Notes: generated by a model from the letters alone, not told the origin. Numbered from the stretch's first letter, positions 1-7,922 are shown. The stretch is 36,424 nucleotides of DNA from an uncultured Myxococcales bacterium (GCA_903847405.1 CAINDP010000197.1:1-36424), one strand, 5' to 3'. Numbers and translations: made by a program.

Positions 1-1
1 G

Positions 2-868
2 GACCCGGTGCTGACCGAGCCCTACGTCAAGCTGATCCGGAACGTGTCGGCGGGGGTCCTCCAGGGCGTGGAAATGCGCCTGCTGGTCGAGGCCTTCGCG
101 GCCGAAATCGCCCGACGCGCTGCGGCCCGCCTGGGGGCGCCCCTGCCCGAGGGGTTCGCCAAGGGCCTCGCCGCCGTGCCGATGGCTGCCGGCCCCGGCA
201 CCCTGCTGGCCCTGGACGCGGCCCTGTCCACCGACAAGGCGTGGACCGACGTCCCCAACTCGGTCCAGCAGAACGTCCCGGCGTGGACGATCTTCTCGAT
301 GTTCCTGATCGTGATCCCGCTGGCGGGCGCCCTGATCCGCGAGCGGCGGGACGGCATGCTGACGCGCCTGCGGGTGATTCCCGGCGCACCGTCGGCCGCG
401 CTGCTGGGCAAGGCGCTGCTGTTCCTGGGCGTGTGCGCGGCGCAGTTCGTCCTGATGTTCGCCATCGGCGCCTGGGTGCTGCCCCTGATGGGCACCCCGG
501 CCTTCACGCCCGGTGCGCACCTGGGCCCGGCGATCGTCGTCGGGCTGGCCACGGCCGCGGCGGCCATGGGCTTCGGGCTGGCGGTGGGCTCGGTGGCGGG
601 CACGCCCGAGCAGGCGTCGGTCTTCGGCGCATCCACGATCGTGATCTTCGGGGCCGTGGGCGGCGTTCTGATGCCCCGGTTCTCGATGCCCCAGACGATG
701 CGCGAACTGACGATCGTGTCCCCCCTGGGGTGGGCCCAGGAGGCGTTCCTGGGCCTGTTCCTGCGCCAGGGGGACCTGCTGTCGGTCGGACCCCCCGTGT
801 TGCGGTTGCTGGCCTTTGCCGCGGTCGGCGTGGCCGTGGCGTTGACGTTCCAGCGGCGACGGGGTTGA
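2..868 (+). CDS. ABC-2 type transporter permease, C-terminal part (5' end cut by window)
   Basis: The frame is open to the left edge, so the N-terminus lies outside the window; a GTG at position 8 is probably internal. The visible 288 codons end in about six hydrophobic segments, beginning near PAWTIFSMFLIVIPLAGAL and finishing in a basic tail (QRRRG). The segment LIRERRDGMLTRLRVIP is the cytoplasmic coupling region typical of ABC-2 permeases (compare the EREEEQGNLEQL region of the permease at 35258). It should form an inner-membrane channel driven by an ATPase encoded upstream. The ACP gene follows after 52 bases on the same strand, so the exporter may serve the lipid or polyketide cluster downstream. 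The substrate cannot be told from sequence. Confidence 0.88.
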   Translation, partial: DPVLTEPYVKLIRNVSAGVLQGVEMRLLVEAFAAEIARRAAARLGAPLPEGFAKGLAAVPMAAGPGTLLALDAALSTDKAWTDVPNSVQQNVPAWTIFSMFLIVIPLAGALIRERRDGMLTRLRVIPGAPSAALLGKALLFLGVCAAQFVLMFAIGAWVLPLMGTPAFTPGAHLGPAIVVGLATAAAAMGFGLAVGSVAGTPEQASVFGASTIVIFGAVGGVLMPRFSMPQTMRELTIVSPLGWAQEAFLGLFLRQGDLLSVGPPVLRLLAFAAVGVAVALTFQRRRG

Positions 869-920: not shown

Positions 921-1199
921 GTGGAGGAACTGGGACTGGAACTGGAAATTGAACTGCGGGCGCTGATCCAGCAGGCCTGCGACCTGGACGACGCGAAGAT
1001 GGCGTCGCTGACCGACGACGATCCCCTGGTGGGGCCCGAATCCCCCCTGGGTCTGGACAGTCTGGACGCCCTGGAAATCGTCACGGCGGTCCAGCGGCAG
1101 TACGCCGTCCGGATCGACAACCAGAACACCAGCATCCGGGTGCTCCAGTCGCTGAAGATCCTGGCGGACTTCATCCGCCAGGAAAAGGCCTCGGCATGA
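921..1199 (+). CDS. acyl carrier protein, type II
   Basis: A 92-residue acidic protein with the phosphopantetheine attachment motif GLDSLDALE; Ser47 is the predicted carrier serine. It would hold growing acyl or ketide intermediates as thioesters in the cytoplasm. The start is GTG at 921, chosen because GGAGG (910-914) lies six bases upstream. Length and helix pattern fit a stand-alone ACP. It differs from a standard housekeeping AcpP in its N-terminus and in the TSIRVLQSL stretch, and it sits outside any fab operon. Its stop overlaps the next gene's ATG (ATGA), so it is translationally coupled to the ketosynthase and is probably its dedicated carrier. Confidence 0.9.
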   Translation: MEELGLELEIELRALIQQACDLDDAKMASLTDDDPLVGPESPLGLDSLDALEIVTAVQRQYAVRIDNQNTSIRVLQSLKILADFIRQEKASA

Positions 1200-2386
1200 A
1201 CCCCGTCCCCGTCCGCATCGCCGGCCTGGGCCTCGTCAGCGCCCTGGGCATCGGCCGTGGTCCCGTCGCCGCCCGCATCCGGGCCGGCGACATCGGGCTG
1301 CACCGCCTGACCTCGGTGGCGTCGCCGATCGCCGACCGCGTCCCCGTGTCGCAGGTCGTGGAACTCGACATCGACCCGTCGGCCCCGCGCAACGACGTCC
1401 TGGCGACCGAGGCCGTGCGGCAGGCCCTGGCCGAGGCGGGCCTGGCCCCCCGGGGCCCCGAGGTCGCCGCCGCGGCGCTGCTGGTCGGCTCGATCACGGG
1501 CGACTCGAACCTGGCCGAAACCCGGTATCGCCGGAAGGTCCTGGAACAGGGCGCCGTGCCGTGCGTGACGATCGAGCCTCCCGCCGGACGCATCGCGTCG
1601 CGGCTGGCCGAAACCCTGGGCGTGCGCGGCCCCATCCTGACGTCGTGCTCGGCCTGCACCTCGTCGGCGAACGCGATGCTGACCGCGGTGCACCTGCTGC
1701 GCCAGGGCCGGGTCCCCCGGGCCATCGTCGTGGGCACCGACGTGCTGACGGCCACCTTGATCCACGGGTTCGACTCCTTGATGCTGCTGGACGTCGGCGG
1801 CTGCCGCCCCTTCGACCGCAGCCGCAAGGGCATCCAGGTGGGCGAGGCGGCCGGTGCGGTGGTGCTGGAACTGGCGAACCCCGACGACGCATCCGACGGT
1901 GCGCCCTGGCTGCTGGGCGGGGCCAGCCGGTGCGACCCCTTCCACATGACGGCCTCCTCCCCCGACGGCAGCGGCGCCGAGGCCGTGATGCGCGCCGCGT
2001 GCGCCCAGTCCGGCGTGGACCCGGCCGACATCGTCGCGATCAAGGCCCACGGCACCGGAACGCCGGACAACGACGCGGCAGAAGGCCACGCGCTGCGACG
2101 CCTGTTCGGCGACGCCGTCCCCCCCTTCGCCTCCCTGAAACGCTACCTGGGCCACACGATGGGCGCCGCCGGGACCGTGGAACTGGCCGCCTTCCTGGGA
2201 TGCCTGCAGGCGGGCTTCGTGCCGGCCTGCGCGGGCTTCGCCGAGGACGACCCCGAGGTGGGCGTGGCGCCGTTGCGGCAGCACGCACCCTTCGCGGGCG
2301 GCACGGTGATGCTGAACTACTTCGGCTTCGGCGGGAACAGCGTGTCGCTGCTGGTCCGGATGCCCCGACGGGAGGTCCGCCCGTGA
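1196..2386 (+). CDS. beta-ketoacyl-ACP synthase (FabF/KAS II-like), catalytically intact
   Basis: A 396-residue thiolase-fold condensing enzyme. The active-site Cys154 is in CSACTSSANAM, His285 is in AHGTGTPDND, and His320 is in the KRYLGHTMGAAG block with Lys315. This Cys-His-His set is that of decarboxylating ketosynthases joining malonyl-ACP to an acyl chain. The C-terminal LNYFGFGGNSVSLL matches the family's NSFGFGGxN motif. It overlaps the ACP gene upstream (ATGA) and the ketosynthase-like gene downstream (GTGA). The pairing of an intact KS with a degenerate KS recalls the KS-alpha/KS-beta heterodimers of type II polyketide and aryl-polyene systems. That partnership is inference; the enzyme class is clear. 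Confidence 0.93.
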   Translation: MNPVPVRIAGLGLVSALGIGRGPVAARIRAGDIGLHRLTSVASPIADRVPVSQVVELDIDPSAPRNDVLATEAVRQALAEAGLAPRGPEVAAAALLVGSITGDSNLAETRYRRKVLEQGAVPCVTIEPPAGRIASRLAETLGVRGPILTSCSACTSSANAMLTAVHLLRQGRVPRAIVVGTDVLTATLIHGFDSLMLLDVGGCRPFDRSRKGIQVGEAAGAVVLELANPDDASDGAPWLLGGASRCDPFHMTASSPDGSGAEAVMRAACAQSGVDPADIVAIKAHGTGTPDNDAAEGHALRRLFGDAVPPFASLKRYLGHTMGAAGTVELAAFLGCLQAGFVPACAGFAEDDPEVGVAPLRQHAPFAGGTVMLNYFGFGGNSVSLLVRMPRREVRP

Positions 2387-3348
2387 AGGTCCTTGCCGCC
2401 TGGTCCCTGTGGCCCGATCCGCCGGCGACGCCGGGCGCCGATTTCCGCGCCCCGGACCTGGGGCCGCTGGAGGCGCAATATGTCCCGCAGCGCCCGCGGC
2501 GCGTGGGTCGCCACGCCCGCCTGACCCTGGTGGGGGCAGCAGCCTGCGTGGCCCAGCGCGTCCAGCCGATCCCGGGCAACCGCACGGGCATCTACCTGGG
2601 CTCGGGCATCGGCAACGCCGCCGAGGAATCCCTGGTCGCCGGACAGGTCGTGTGCATGGTGATGGGGGTCAGCCCGGGCCCGGCCTCGCCCGTGCACTTC
2701 GCGAACTCGGTCAGCAATTCCGCCACGTTCTATGCGGCACGCGTCACCGGCGCCACGGGGCCCAACGTCGTCGTGTCCCAGGAGGAGGTGTCCTTCGAGG
2801 GCGCCCTGATGATGGCGGACGTGGCGCTGCAGGCCGGCGAAGTCGACTGCGCGCTGGTCGGCGGCGTGGACGAGTGCCTGGAGGCCCGGGAGGGCGTCTT
2901 CCTCCGCATCGACCTTCCCGCCGACACCGTGCTGGGCGAGGGATCGGGCTGGCTGATGGTGGGCCGGGACGGCGACGGTTCGCTGGGCGACATCCTCGCG
3001 TCCGTGCAGATCCCCGGCGCCCCCCGGGCCGGCCGGGACGCCCCCGACGCGTGGGCCGAGGTCGCGGCCCTGGCCCTGGCCGCACGGCGGGACGGCGAGG
3101 ACGTGACGATTCTGCCGGGCCTGCGCGTGGATGCCGACGACGCCCGGGCGCTGGCCGCCCTGGTCCCCGGCGCCCGCGTGCAGACCTACCTGGACCGGTG
3201 CGGATCGTTCGCCACGGCGGCCGCCCTGGGCATCGCCGGCATCTTCCGGCCGGGTGTCGCCCCGGGCCTGTACGTGCACGTTTCCCGCTGCCGCATCGGC
3301 GTCGCAGCCGTCGTTGTCCGACGCACACTGGATGAAGTCAGGGAGTAG
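2383..3348 (+). CDS. ketosynthase-like protein lacking the catalytic residues (chain-length-factor-like)
   Basis: The GTG start overlaps the preceding stop (GTGA), giving 321 residues, shorter than a full ketosynthase. The thiolase fold is recognisable: GIYLGSGIGNAAEES, then HFANSVSNSATFYAAR, then GPNVVVSQEEVSFEGA, then LGEGSGWLMV. Aligned on GP(N/I), the active-site Cys of the upstream enzyme corresponds to Glu135. The HGTGT block is missing, and the second histidine block reads LDRCGSFATAAALG with no His. It therefore cannot condense as a normal KS. It resembles the N-terminal-domain-only KS homologues of aryl-polyene clusters and the chain-length factors of type II PKS. It probably forms a heterodimer with the upstream enzyme and sets product length or specificity; that role is inferred. 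Confidence 0.8.
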   Translation: MKVLAAWSLWPDPPATPGADFRAPDLGPLEAQYVPQRPRRVGRHARLTLVGAAACVAQRVQPIPGNRTGIYLGSGIGNAAEESLVAGQVVCMVMGVSPGPASPVHFANSVSNSATFYAARVTGATGPNVVVSQEEVSFEGALMMADVALQAGEVDCALVGGVDECLEAREGVFLRIDLPADTVLGEGSGWLMVGRDGDGSLGDILASVQIPGAPRAGRDAPDAWAEVAALALAARRDGEDVTILPGLRVDADDARALAALVPGARVQTYLDRCGSFATAAALGIAGIFRPGVAPGLYVHVSRCRIGVAAVVVRRTLDEVRE

Positions 3349-3352
3349 CCCC

Positions 3353-4603
3353 ATGTGGATGAAACTGATCTACCCGAAGTGGCCCAAGCTGCCCGAGCAG
3401 ACGGAATTCCATCTGCCCCCCCACGGGCCCATCAACTTTGCGGCGAACGTCCCGAACGACGTCCACCTGACGTTCCATGACGAAAACCGCGAGGAACTGG
3501 ACCTCGAGGACACGCCGGACGTCGTGGCCCTGTCGGTCATGCTGACCTGTGCGACGCCCCGGGCCAAGGAAATCGCGGCGGCCTACCGGGCCCGCGGCAT
3601 CCCCGTCATCGCCGGCGGCATCGCGGTCGCGATCCACAAGGAGGAAATGGCGGCGGCATGCGACGCGGTCTTCCTGGGCGAGGTCGAGGGCAACTTCCAG
3701 GAAGTCCTGGCCGACCTGCGCAAGAAGTCGCTGAAGAAGGTCTACGACCGCATGGGCCAACTGCCGCCCATCGAGTCCGTGGGCCCGGCCCGCCGGGACA
3801 TCCTGAACTACGCCAACTACACGTACCGCGGCGTGCGCATGGTCGACCTGGTCCACGCGTCCCGCGGGTGCCGCTTCAACTGCCCGCCCTGCAGCGTCGC
3901 CTACCTGGGCGGCCGCTGCTTCCGGCCGCGACCCGTCGAAACCGTCGTCCGGGAAATCGAAGGCATCGACAACGGCCGCCTGTTCCTGGTGGACAACTCC
4001 CTGGCCCAGAACAAGGAATGGGAACTGGAGCTGTTCAAGGCGATCAAGCCGCTGAAGCGCAAGTGGATTTCCCACCCCATCGAGGCCGACGACGAGGTCC
4101 TGCAGGCGGCCTACGAGGCGGGCGCTTGGTACGTGTACCAGGCCGTCACCGAGGTGAACGACGGGATCCGCCGCCGCATCCAGATGTACAAGGACCACGG
4201 CATCGGCGTCGAAGGCACCATCATCCTGGGCACCGACGACCAGACGAAGGACGACGTCCTGCGCCTGATCGACTTCTGCCTGGAAATGGACCTGGACATG
4301 GCCGAGTTCACGGTCATGACGCCGTTCCTGCACACGCCCTACCGCACGCAGGTCGAAGCCGAGGGCCGCGTCCTGCACAACAACTGGATCGACTACACGG
4401 CGGGCAAGGTCGTGTTCCAGCCGCGGCACATGACGCCCACCGAACTGCAGGACCTGTACTACCTGGCGTGGGACAAGTTCTACGGCTCGGACGGGCGGCA
4501 GACGAAGATGGCGCGGCTGTTCCGGAAGGTCGTGCAGCGCGAGCGCGCGGAAGGCACCACGACGATGCCCGACGGCACCGTGCGCGGCTGGGTCAAGCCC
4601 TAG
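3353..4603 (+). CDS. B12-binding-type radical SAM enzyme
   Basis: The start is ATG at 3353, four bases after the previous stop; 416 residues. Residues about 27-130 resemble a Rossmann-like cobalamin-binding domain (DVVALSVMLT, then IPVIAGGIAVAI, then DAVFLGEVEG) but lack a visible DxHxxG cobalt-ligating motif. The radical SAM core follows with the 4Fe-4S cysteines Cys173, Cys177 and Cys180 (CRFNCPPC) and barrel-strand motifs such as LFLVDNSLAQN and GIGVEGTIILGTDDQ. Relatives include HpnR-like methylases and lipid-modifying enzymes that methylate or rearrange unactivated carbons. Position at the end of an ACP/KS operon suggests it modifies the acyl or polyketide product, possibly as an ACP-bound or lipid intermediate. 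The exact reaction is unknown. Confidence 0.85.
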   Translation: MWMKLIYPKWPKLPEQTEFHLPPHGPINFAANVPNDVHLTFHDENREELDLEDTPDVVALSVMLTCATPRAKEIAAAYRARGIPVIAGGIAVAIHKEEMAAACDAVFLGEVEGNFQEVLADLRKKSLKKVYDRMGQLPPIESVGPARRDILNYANYTYRGVRMVDLVHASRGCRFNCPPCSVAYLGGRCFRPRPVETVVREIEGIDNGRLFLVDNSLAQNKEWELELFKAIKPLKRKWISHPIEADDEVLQAAYEAGAWYVYQAVTEVNDGIRRRIQMYKDHGIGVEGTIILGTDDQTKDDVLRLIDFCLEMDLDMAEFTVMTPFLHTPYRTQVEAEGRVLHNNWIDYTAGKVVFQPRHMTPTELQDLYYLAWDKFYGSDGRQTKMARLFRKVVQRERAEGTTTMPDGTVRGWVKP

Positions 4604-5237: not shown

Positions 5238-7922
5238 ATGCGACGGTGGACGTTCCTGGTGGCGGTGCTGGCCGCGGCGATGGTCGGGGCCTGCGGGGGT
5301 TCTTCGGGCGGCACGGACCCGGGGACCGATCCGGGCACCGACGGGACCGTGGACGACGTCGTGGGCGACACGCCGGCGGATGCCCTCCCCGACGCCCCCC
5401 CCGGCGACACGGTCGTGGAGGACCTCCCCGAGGAGGTCCCGCCGACCGACACCGACGAGGACGTGCCCTCGGGCCCCCTCATCCCGAAGGAGGAAGGGGA
5501 CAAGCTGACCGTGTCGAACGGCGTCGTGACGCTGGTGTACGACCTCGCCAAGGGGACCTTCGACCTGGGCGTGGTCCCGGGCCAGGACGGCCTGATCAAC
5601 GCCCACTCGGAGGCCGTCCTGACGGTCCAGGGCGCCGAAACCACCATCGCGTCGTCGGACCCGGGCCCGCGCATCCAGTACCAGTCCGTCTTCGGCCCCG
5701 ACGAGCTGGGCGAGGCCGTCGTCATCCGCTTCGACGCCGTGCCCACCAACAAGATCGGCGGCGTCGCGACCTACATCGCGCTGCACCGGACGACGCCCGC
5801 GGTCACCTTCCGGACCATCGTGGCGATGCCGTTCGCCAACGACGTGCAGGTCCAGGAAATCCGGCCGGTCGTGGCCGACTTCGAGGACGGCGCCGCGCTG
5901 CACCTGGGTCCGGGCACCCGGGACGCGGTCGTCGTGGACAACGGCAGCGAGATCCTGCTGGACTTCAAGGCCGACGCCCAACTGGTCGGCGAGAACCCGG
6001 GCGGCACCGTCGGCCCGGGCCTGGCGTCGAACTGGAGCGCCGTCGTGTGCACGGCGGCAAAATCCTGCGCCGTGGCCGGCTTCGTGACCACCACCAAGGC
6101 CATCGGCCTGGTGACCACCGACCAGCGTTCCGGCAGCGCCGTGACCGTCGGCGGCGAGGAGGGCCTGTCGCTCTTCTCGATCCGCAGCCATTTCCAGCCC
6201 TACGCCAACCTGGACGTCGGCCGCACCCAGTCGTCGGACGTGGCCTACGTGGACCTCACGAACAGTTCGTACGAGGGTCTGAAGCGCTTCGGCCGCGCCA
6301 TCGCGACGATCAACAACCGCCAGCCCCCCGCGGTCCCGCCCTCCTCCTGGAATTCCTGGGGCGGCGGCGGCGGATCGGGCGGCGCCGGGCAGGGCATCGA
6401 CGAAACGTTCATCCTGCAGAACCTGGAAGCCGCCACCCGGGACTTCCTGCCCTACGGCATGGACTACTTCCTGATCGACGACGGCTGGCAGAAGGACGAC
6501 GGGACGTGGACCACTGATACCGCCAAGTTCCCGAAGCACGGCGCCCAGGACGGCATGGCGTGGATGGCGGACCAGATCACGGCCGCGGGCTTCCTGCCGG
6601 GAATGTGGGCGGCTCCCTTCCGGGTGGGCAAGGACTGGCCCATCGCCACGCAGCACCCCGACTGGCTGCTGACGCTGGATGCGTTCGGGACGATGGCCCT
6701 GGGCGCCACGTCCAACTACGCGATGCTGGACCCGTCGAACCCCGCCGTGAAGGCCTACCTCACCGAAATCTACACGCGCGTCACGAAGGACTGGGGCTAC
6801 CGGTTCCTGAAGTTGGACTTCAGCGTCTACGCGATGTTCGGGACCAACTACTCCGTCGCGGGCAGGAGCGGCCTGTCCCTGTACAAGGAGGCACTGCAGG
6901 TCATCCGGGACGCCATCGGGCCCGACGTGGTCCTGATGATCGTGTCCGGCACGGGCGCCAACTATGGCATCGCCGACGCCCAGCGCCTGTCGCTGGACAA
7001 CATGCCGCGGTGGGGCAGCACGATGTCGCCGTTCGACCAGGGCATCCGGGCGACGGTCCTGTCGGCCTCCCACCGGTACTGGATGGGCAACACGGTCTGG
7101 TCGAACAACCCGGACCTCGTGTTCTTCCGGGACGACCAGGGGCTGACCGCCGACGAGGCGCACGCGTTCGCGCTGTTCGTGTCGGTGTTCGGCGGGATCG
7201 TCAAGCTGGGCGAATCCTTCACGTACCTGGCCACGCACCCCGAGGCGCTGTCGCTGGTCGAGCGGATGGTCCCGCCGCTGACGACGTTCCCGGAACCCCT
7301 GGATCTGTTCCAGAAGCGCTGGCCGGAACTGTGGCGCGTCCCGATGGCGGACCTGGGCCTGAACTGCAATGTATACGGCCTGTTCCACTGGGGCGAAAAC
7401 CGCAACATCGTCGCCCAGCAGGACGTGGACGAGTCGGCGCGCACGCTGACCATCCCGGCCATCGTGGACGCGACCTCCGGCGGCCCCCGGGTCTTCTTCG
7501 ACCTGGAGGAAGGGACGGTTCTCACCGACCCCGACGGGAAGGCGCTGCGCACCGGTGACGTGGACGTGACGATGCCTCCGCGAACCGGCCGCCTGCTGCT
7601 GGCACGCGCCGTGCCCAGTTTCGGTGGCGTCGGGCCGGTGTTCCTGGCCACGGACCGCCACCTGATGGGCGGCGGCGGCGTCCTGACCGAGACCGCCGAA
7701 GACGCCAACAGCACGACGATCGCGTTCACCAAGGCCGTCCCCGGCCGCGTGACGACGATGTCGTTCCTGGTGGCGACGGGGGCACAGACCGAGGTGCAGG
7801 TGCTGGATGCGACGGACGTCACCCACGAAACCACGCCTCTCGCCGACGCGGACCTTCTGACCGTGACGTTCACCACGACCACGGCCACGGCCGGGCTTCG
7901 GGTAAACTACCTGGCGCAGTAG
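5238..7922 (+). CDS. lipoprotein glycoside hydrolase, clan GH-D (GH36/GH27-like, alpha-galactosidase type)
   Basis: An 894-residue surface or periplasmic lipoprotein. The signal peptide ends in MVGAC (Cys19), followed by an Asp/Pro/Thr-rich linker to about residue 80, as in many myxobacterial exported proteins. A beta-rich N-terminal region precedes the barrel, which carries DYFLIDDGWQ (about 409-418), MWAAPF, the predicted nucleophile Asp527 in FLKLDF, and acid/base Asp587 in an RxxxD motif (RLSLDNMPRWG). These are the clan GH-D signatures of retaining enzymes that release terminal alpha-galactose or raffinose-type sugars. A further beta-sandwich follows from about residue 790. The start was chosen at ATG 5238 after GAGGAGG. 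The next lipoprotein lies 17 bases downstream and is probably co-transcribed. Substrate specificity is not determined. Confidence 0.88.
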   Translation: MRRWTFLVAVLAAAMVGACGGSSGGTDPGTDPGTDGTVDDVVGDTPADALPDAPPGDTVVEDLPEEVPPTDTDEDVPSGPLIPKEEGDKLTVSNGVVTLVYDLAKGTFDLGVVPGQDGLINAHSEAVLTVQGAETTIASSDPGPRIQYQSVFGPDELGEAVVIRFDAVPTNKIGGVATYIALHRTTPAVTFRTIVAMPFANDVQVQEIRPVVADFEDGAALHLGPGTRDAVVVDNGSEILLDFKADAQLVGENPGGTVGPGLASNWSAVVCTAAKSCAVAGFVTTTKAIGLVTTDQRSGSAVTVGGEEGLSLFSIRSHFQPYANLDVGRTQSSDVAYVDLTNSSYEGLKRFGRAIATINNRQPPAVPPSSWNSWGGGGGSGGAGQGIDETFILQNLEAATRDFLPYGMDYFLIDDGWQKDDGTWTTDTAKFPKHGAQDGMAWMADQITAAGFLPGMWAAPFRVGKDWPIATQHPDWLLTLDAFGTMALGATSNYAMLDPSNPAVKAYLTEIYTRVTKDWGYRFLKLDFSVYAMFGTNYSVAGRSGLSLYKEALQVIRDAIGPDVVLMIVSGTGANYGIADAQRLSLDNMPRWGSTMSPFDQGIRATVLSASHRYWMGNTVWSNNPDLVFFRDDQGLTADEAHAFALFVSVFGGIVKLGESFTYLATHPEALSLVERMVPPLTTFPEPLDLFQKRWPELWRVPMADLGLNCNVYGLFHWGENRNIVAQQDVDESARTLTIPAIVDATSGGPRVFFDLEEGTVLTDPDGKALRTGDVDVTMPPRTGRLLLARAVPSFGGVGPVFLATDRHLMGGGGVLTETAEDANSTTIAFTKAVPGRVTTMSFLVATGAQTEVQVLDATDVTHETTPLADADLLTVTFTTTTATAGLRVNYLAQ

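Follow-up and report, generated by a model that had tools for sequence, protein, structure and literature searches.

Among described biosynthetic systems, the dar cluster of Azoarcus sp. BH72 (dialkylresorcinol, arcuflavin) carries, all in one direction, darA, darB, darD (hypothetical), darE (BtrH-like), darF (ABC ATPase), a toxin-antitoxin-like pair, darI (permease), darC (acyl carrier protein, ACP), darJ (ketosynthase, KS), and darK (hypothetical) (PMC3949708). Clusters of the aryl-polyene/flexirubin/"ladderane" type bearing radical S-adenosylmethionine (SAM) genes have been noted in Desulfotalea, Geobacter, and Pelobacter in connection with ladderanes (Rattray et al., PMC2649909), and AmcF-AmcG of the cispentacin pathway provides an example of a KS that, paired with a degenerate partner, works in the absence of a ketoreductase (KR) (PMC10698177). 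The stretch of DNA analyzed here, hereafter the window, comprises 36,424 nucleotides from an uncultured Myxococcales bacterium (GCA_903847405.1 CAINDP010000197.1:1-36424) and represents the entire contig C197 of a metagenome-assembled genome (MAG) of 5.65 Mb in 273 contigs. A preliminary description, made from the sequence alone, had placed an ACP, a competent KS, an inactive KS-like protein, and a cobalamin-type radical SAM enzyme at positions 921-4603, and all four genes were recovered there. They form the 3' half of an operon of eight genes, the first seven of which follow the dar order and the last of which encodes the radical SAM enzyme.

The operon was completed from contig C186, the end of which is identical to the beginning of the window over exactly 141 bases and supplies the missing N-terminal part of the ABC-2 permease; the orthologous permease of genome G001 is intact and has 444 aa. 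The resulting order, DarG - DarH - ABC ATPase - ABC-2 permease - ACP - KS - chain-length factor (CLF)-like protein - radical SAM enzyme, was conserved in six related genomes, including that of the window, wherever the upstream part was read. The four window genes were joined as previously described, through two 4-bp overlaps (ATGA, then GTGA) and, before the radical SAM gene, a 4-bp spacer, and short overlaps of a similar kind were observed at the orthologous loci. The dN/dS values of the operon genes were 0.10-0.29, and the genes are under purifying selection. Since the four-gene order was also retained in five further genomes of the same family, the arrangement cannot be attributed to chance. 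The cluster had been expected to extend upstream, which it does, onto C186; however, the genes lying there are not the anticipated reducing and releasing enzymes but DarG, DarH, and the ABC ATPase, with housekeeping genes beyond them. Neither the operon nor C186 contained a KR, a dehydratase, or a thioesterase, so the idea of a missing cluster half upstream was rejected. The linkage to an ABC-2 exporter, on which the earlier suggestion of an exported lipid or polyketide was based, was confirmed. The coordinates of the features are listed in Table 1.

Table 1. Genes of the operon core in the window and the adjoining permease parts.
Feature	Coordinates	Strand	Characteristics
ACP, dedicated (DarC position)	921-1199	+	92 aa; PF00550; GLDSLDALE phosphopantetheine motif
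KS, catalytically competent (DarJ position)	1196-2386	+	396 aa; PF00109/PF02801
KS-like protein, CLF-like partner (DarK position)	2383-3348	+	321 aa; weak ketoacyl-synt match; catalytic residues gone
Radical SAM enzyme, B12-binding fold	3353-4603	+	416 aa; PF02310 above cut-off, PF04055 below
ABC-2 permease, C-terminal part	1-868	+	ABC2_membrane_3, ABC2_membrane
ABC-2 permease, N-terminal 202 codons	C186:13078-13683		from the overlap of the C186 end with the window

Domains and families were assigned by Pfam and NCBIfam profile searches with gathering or family cut-offs. The small protein of about 150 aa at the beginning of the operon matched the DarG family (109.2 bits against a cut-off of 70), and the following BtrH_N/DUF4872 protein matched the BtrH-related acyltransferase DarH (417.7 against 300), with H12-C13-E14, H124, and H128 invariant among 11 DarH sequences. 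The ACP-KS-KS-like module and the ABC exporter likewise stand in dar order. Without the radical SAM gene, the operon reproduces the seven-gene order darD-E-F-I-C-J-K of Azoarcus BH72, where the KS-like gene is likened by position to darK, annotated as hypothetical. Azoarcus BH72 possesses darA and darB, whereas no DarB above the cut-off was found in the window genome and no DarA in its family; further differences are the radical SAM gene after the KS-like gene and a co-occurring O-methyltransferase in the window lineage. That O-methyltransferase (Methyltransf_2 plus Dimerisation domains) was encoded in all six operon carriers and in none of the seven non-carriers among 13 genomes of the family, directly after the radical SAM gene in three carriers and elsewhere in the other three. 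The only DarB-like protein of the window genome was a ketosynthase III (KSIII) that scored 116 and 79 bits with the DarB models NF005293 and NF053539 (cut-offs 450 and 550) and was about 31% identical to a DarB of Myxococcota. Both positive controls of the DarB search, G130 and G122, were matched; these genomes belong to other Myxococcota families and contain Dar-type loci with DarB (473 bits against 450 in G130).

BtrH_N proteins and the radical SAM family co-occurred across Myxococcota. A BtrH_N protein was encoded in nine of the 11 Myxococcota genomes with the radical SAM family and in 42 of the 273 without it (284 genomes in all). A stand-alone DarG-DarH-ABC-ABC-ACP-KS-CLF module was found in G214; its locus contained no radical SAM gene, DarB was not found in the whole genome, and neither DarA nor DarB was matched in the fetched locus. 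A search of plasmids with DarH returned only actinomycete relatives of BtrH at about 30% identity. In G177, an ACP, a small protein, a DarH-like protein, and two ABC genes stood together without a KS (L088, L193), and the family radical SAM gene was located on a different contig.

The KS retained Cys154, His285, Lys315, and His320, which were invariant in a 14-sequence alignment that included E. coli FabF, in agreement with its description as a competent condensing enzyme. In the KS-like protein, the position of the catalytic Cys was occupied by Glu in the joint alignment, where relatives have Glu, Asp, Met, or Gly; neither of the catalytic His nor the Lys was retained, so the protein was confirmed as an inactive ketosynthase. 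An AlphaFold2 model of this protein (pTM 0.83) had as its best PDB fold matches the CLF-type chains of the ishigamide and AntDE KS/CLF complexes, and the CLF fold combined with the lost Cys corresponds to the partner subunit of type II polyketide synthases (PKS). Unlike those systems, the KS-like protein has a shortened second half and only 12-20% identity to them, and the operon encodes no KR or dehydratase. A role as a KSQ-type decarboxylase was rejected, as no conserved Gln aligns with the Cys position (Glu, Met, Gly, or Asp occur there); the Gln lies two residues earlier. In the trees built for both KS proteins, the window KS was sister to those of Dar-type loci of other Myxococcota with support of 100/99; the KS-like tree agreed with weaker support. 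The reference loci were those of G130, G122, and G214, the last of which was included although DarB was not found there. Orthologs of the ACP occupied the same place in five genomes. The operon is a genuine type II PKS-like unit in which the KS partner is inactive and to which an ABC-2 exporter is linked.

Comparison with better-known pathways left several of them aside. The best NCBIfam match of the ACP was PRK09184 (48.6 bits, cut-off 70), and the KS scored 239.5 bits with the aryl-polyene (APE)-type PRK09185 (cut-off 407); a classic APE assignment was rejected on these scores, and ordinary fatty-acid synthesis (FAS) was rejected because its family cut-offs were not reached. A KR, ApeP/ApeI dehydratases, LolA, MMPL, and an acyltransferase, expected of an APE cluster, were not found in the operon itself and were present at an unlinked locus of the same genome. 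The cispentacin system shares a KS with a motif-less degenerate partner and a dedicated ACP; it differs in that the AmcF and AmcB models scored 161 against 325 and 22 against 80 bits, and the operon has no gene for a 2-oxoglutarate ligase (AmcH), and cispentacin/coronafacic-type type II PKS were rejected on these grounds. The celluxanthene-type pathway of anaerobic arylpolyenes, the product of an iterative type I PKS (PMC12144888), was set aside as unrelated. Thus, the statement that the gene combination matches no nameable classic cluster held with regard to the APE and ladderane cut-offs; it did not hold for the ACP-KS-KS-like order, which without the radical SAM gene is the known order of Azoarcus BH72, nor for the recurrent KS-CLF-radical SAM arrangement.

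The radical SAM enzyme contained a CxxxCxxC motif (C173-x3-C177-x2-C180) that was invariant in 27 relatives. Its B12-binding domain (PF02310) passed the Pfam cut-off, and the Radical_SAM domain (PF04055) scored 24.6, just below the gathering score of 29.5. The predicted structure (pLDDT 92) had AprD4, MgmA, TsrM, and CysS as its nearest folds, with which it shares the CxxxCxxC motif at an identity of 12-19%; the closest solved structure, by both sequence and fold, was AprD4. MgmA and TsrM are titled methylases in the PDB, and CysS and TokK are methylases. Of the earlier assignment to the cobalamin-binding type, the B12-binding fold, the domain, and the motif were borne out, and cobalamin binding itself is suggested by the fold. 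No NCBIfam model fitted the protein (best scores 60 against 251 and 48 against 360 bits). A scan of GTDB genomes yielded at least 551 confirmed relatives, of which the loci of the best 80 were read, 66 of them spanning at least 11 kb. These 66 loci contained a KS in 59 cases, a TIGR04072-type radical SAM gene in 52, MMPL in 47, and LolA in 40; KS and CLF were the two genes immediately 5' of the family radical SAM gene in 39 of the 80. The family thus represents a widespread group of B12-fold radical SAM enzymes that lacks a dedicated NCBIfam model and regularly accompanies lipid clusters of the aryl-polyene/flexirubin type. Its usual setting is KS-CLF-radical SAM-second radical SAM in aryl-polyene, flexirubin, or "ladderane"-type clusters of many phyla, with loci in Desulfuromonadales, Nitrospirae, Planctomycetes/Verrucomicrobia-type phyla, Elusimicrobia, Bacteroidota, and others. 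Among the best 80 loci, only the orthologs L091 and L092 had the arrangement of the window.

Two further loci are inherited together with the operon. The unlinked contig C201 of the window genome carries KS, CLF, a TIGR04072 radical SAM enzyme (382 bits, cut-off 360), a double KS, ApeP/ApeI-like dehydratases, FabG, FabD, acyltransferases, a GT2 glycosyltransferase, a thioesterase, LolA, and MMPL, so that the KR, dehydratase, thioesterase, and MMPL genes lie in this co-inherited locus and not in the operon. Of the 13 genomes of the family, exactly seven encoded TIGR04072 proteins: the six operon carriers and G006. A further locus, on C43, comprises an ACP, a thioesterase, KS, KSIII, a FabD-like protein, two enoyl-CoA hydratases, and an HpnR-like radical SAM enzyme, with a second TIGR04072-like radical SAM gene nearby; it was likewise present in the six operon carriers and G006. 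Within C43:8855-21340 (L214/L215), the KSIII was related to StlD/DarB, an HADH was present, and the HpnR-like enzyme was of the B12 type. Also within the C201 locus, a 2-hydroxyacyl-CoA dehydratase D subunit, a BcrA/BadF-type activator, an ApbA-type reductase, and a 719-aa putative ADP-forming acyl-CoA synthetase were observed (L009:971-3922 and C201:18815-20974). Together, these proteins may allow an aryl-acrylate starter to be made anaerobically and without an ammonia-lyase. A GcvT-like aminomethyltransferase-family protein was located between ACP and FabG at L008:8683-9750 of this locus.

Desulfuromusa kysingii DSM 7343 (L178/L179) shows how these parts are combined in a single cluster. It carries FabG, TAL-like (ammonia-lyase-like) and FlxY-like genes, KS-CLF-radical SAM-TIGR04072 radical SAM, and GT2/acyltransferase genes, as well as ACP-KS-CLF-DarG-DarH-ABC-ABC and DarB with another radical SAM gene; the cluster includes four radical SAM genes. 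The same family of radical SAM enzyme stands directly after a KS-CLF pair in both organisms, and the DarG, DarH, ABC, ABC, ACP, KS, and CLF genes are shared; however, in D. kysingii the neighboring pair is of the polyene type and the TAL/FlxY-like genes, DarB, and several radical SAM genes are clustered, whereas in the window lineage the neighboring pair is of the Dar type and the genes are split over loci. In G002, the C201-type locus was nearly whole in synteny but lacked its copy of the family radical SAM gene. The second locus of G002, G005, and G011 was KS-CLF-TIGR04072 radical SAM with the family gene missing between CLF and the last gene, and the same three genes were observed in the G009 fragment; in these four genomes, the sole family member was the one in the Dar-type operon. 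Comparison of the two arrangements indicates that the radical SAM gene appears to have moved: in a polyene-type locus it stands between CLF and the second radical SAM gene, whereas here it closes the Dar-type operon. The C201 radical SAM enzyme was rejected as the direct parent of the window enzyme, since the two are not sisters in the tree.

Most likely, the operon of this myxobacterium-like lineage serves to build, modify, transfer, and export a polyketide-like lipid. By a modest margin of belief, we favor the view that it belongs to a split lipid pathway of aryl-polyene/dialkylresorcinol-like character, the unlinked counterparts being the C201-type and probably the C43-type loci; the split pathway is probably anaerobic. 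On the dedicated ACP, the KS-CLF heterodimer would elongate an acyl starter by malonyl units and, with no local reduction, yield a beta-ketoacyl or short polyketide chain. The radical SAM enzyme would then act on the chain while it is bound to the ACP, C-methylation being the most likely reaction; this step would replace the missing DarA/DarB step or add to the polyene half, and the O-methyltransferase would cap a phenol or enol. By analogy with BtrH, DarH would transfer the acyl group carried by the ACP onto a partner molecule, at a hydroxyl or amine, and the product would cross the inner membrane through the ABC-2 exporter; reduction and polyene formation would rely on enzymes encoded at the C201 locus. 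Gene content and order, orthology, active-site residues, fold matches, and co-occurrence are observations; we infer the order of these steps, the radical SAM chemistry, the acceptor of DarH, and the product. A bolder reading, which we consider less likely than not, is an oxygen-independent aryl-polyene/resorcinol-like pathway in which the radical SAM enzyme would take the place of DarB/DarA through new chemistry, either methylating an ACP-bound beta-ketoacyl chain or closing a ring in it, and DarH would join two halves made at unlinked loci.

Several points weigh against the split-pathway view. The functions of DarG, DarH, and KS-CLF are annotations, cobalamin binding is suggested by a predicted fold, and AprD4, the nearest structural relative of the radical SAM enzyme, is a dehydratase. 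The DarA query, a flavodoxin-like gene beside DarB in G130 that itself had no NCBIfam hit, gave no match in the 13 family genomes in a search that had no positive-control genome; against the fetched regions it matched G130 and G122 only. The test of association between BtrH_N and the radical SAM family (Fisher p = 4e-6) ignores kinship, independent lineages behind the co-occurrence are few, since the 13 genomes represent one family in which only genus g2 offers a within-genus contrast, and the lineage genomes are, as far as records named them, incomplete MAGs. In addition, the C201 radical SAM enzyme of the window genome and G001 is a second family copy, so that the relocation holds strictly for no more than the remaining four genomes, one of which, G009, is represented by a 3.3-kb fragment.

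A rival explanation with some claim to attention, though we regard it as unlikely, is that the operon, the O-methyltransferase, and housekeeping FAS make and export their own small polyketide-like lipid or amide: KS-CLF would perform one or a few extensions as AmcF-AmcG do, the radical SAM enzyme would methylate or cyclize, and DarH would transfer. ACP, KS-CLF, transferase, and exporter are all encoded within the operon, which is kept together as one block, the G214 module exists without DarB, DarA, or a radical SAM gene in its locus, and AmcF-AmcG set the precedent for activity without KR (PMC10698177). However, C201-type and C43-type loci accompany the operon in every carrier genome, and the family radical SAM gene is missing from its usual C201-type place in four of them. 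Somewhat less probable still is a non-methylating radical SAM enzyme performing an AprD4-like radical dehydration or a cyclization of the ACP-bound chain in place of a dehydratase or the DarB/DarA step. The resemblance to AprD4 and the lack in the operon of a dehydratase and KR, with DarB not above the cut-off and DarA not found, would fit this; on the other hand, the B12-binding domain exceeds its cut-off, the next fold matches (MgmA, TsrM, CysS, and TokK) are methylases, and dehydratases are already present in the C201 locus.

Ladderane biosynthesis appears very improbable. The radical SAM enzyme of the co-occurring locus passes the TIGR04072 "ladderane" cut-off and syntenic clusters occur in Deltaproteobacteria (Rattray et al., PMC2649909), but the window enzyme reaches only 48 bits against the TIGR04072 cut-off of 360, no ladderanes were found in Desulfotalea despite its similar cluster (PMC2649909), and the ammonia-lyase and flexirubin-ligase-like genes of related clusters point to aryl polyenes. 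We give even less credence to a functionless, decaying fragment of a larger cluster, which the spread of that cluster type's genes over several loci in this family might suggest: the low dN/dS, the conserved short overlaps, the retained catalytic residues, and the occurrence in six genomes all contradict it.

The split-pathway view would make the locus a natural rearrangement that detaches a Dar-type module for acyl assembly, transfer, and export from DarB, and apparently from DarA as well, and couples it with a single radical SAM enzyme. With this minimal gene set it becomes possible to test what DarG, DarH, and the two KS-type proteins at the DarJ/DarK positions do, and D. kysingii DSM 7343 and Geothermobacter hydrogeniphilus provide cultured hosts of the large version of the cluster. 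Downstream of the operon, at positions 5238-7922 of the window, a large, secreted-looking protein is encoded that by eye resembles an alpha-galactosidase-type glycoside hydrolase and is conserved in G001.

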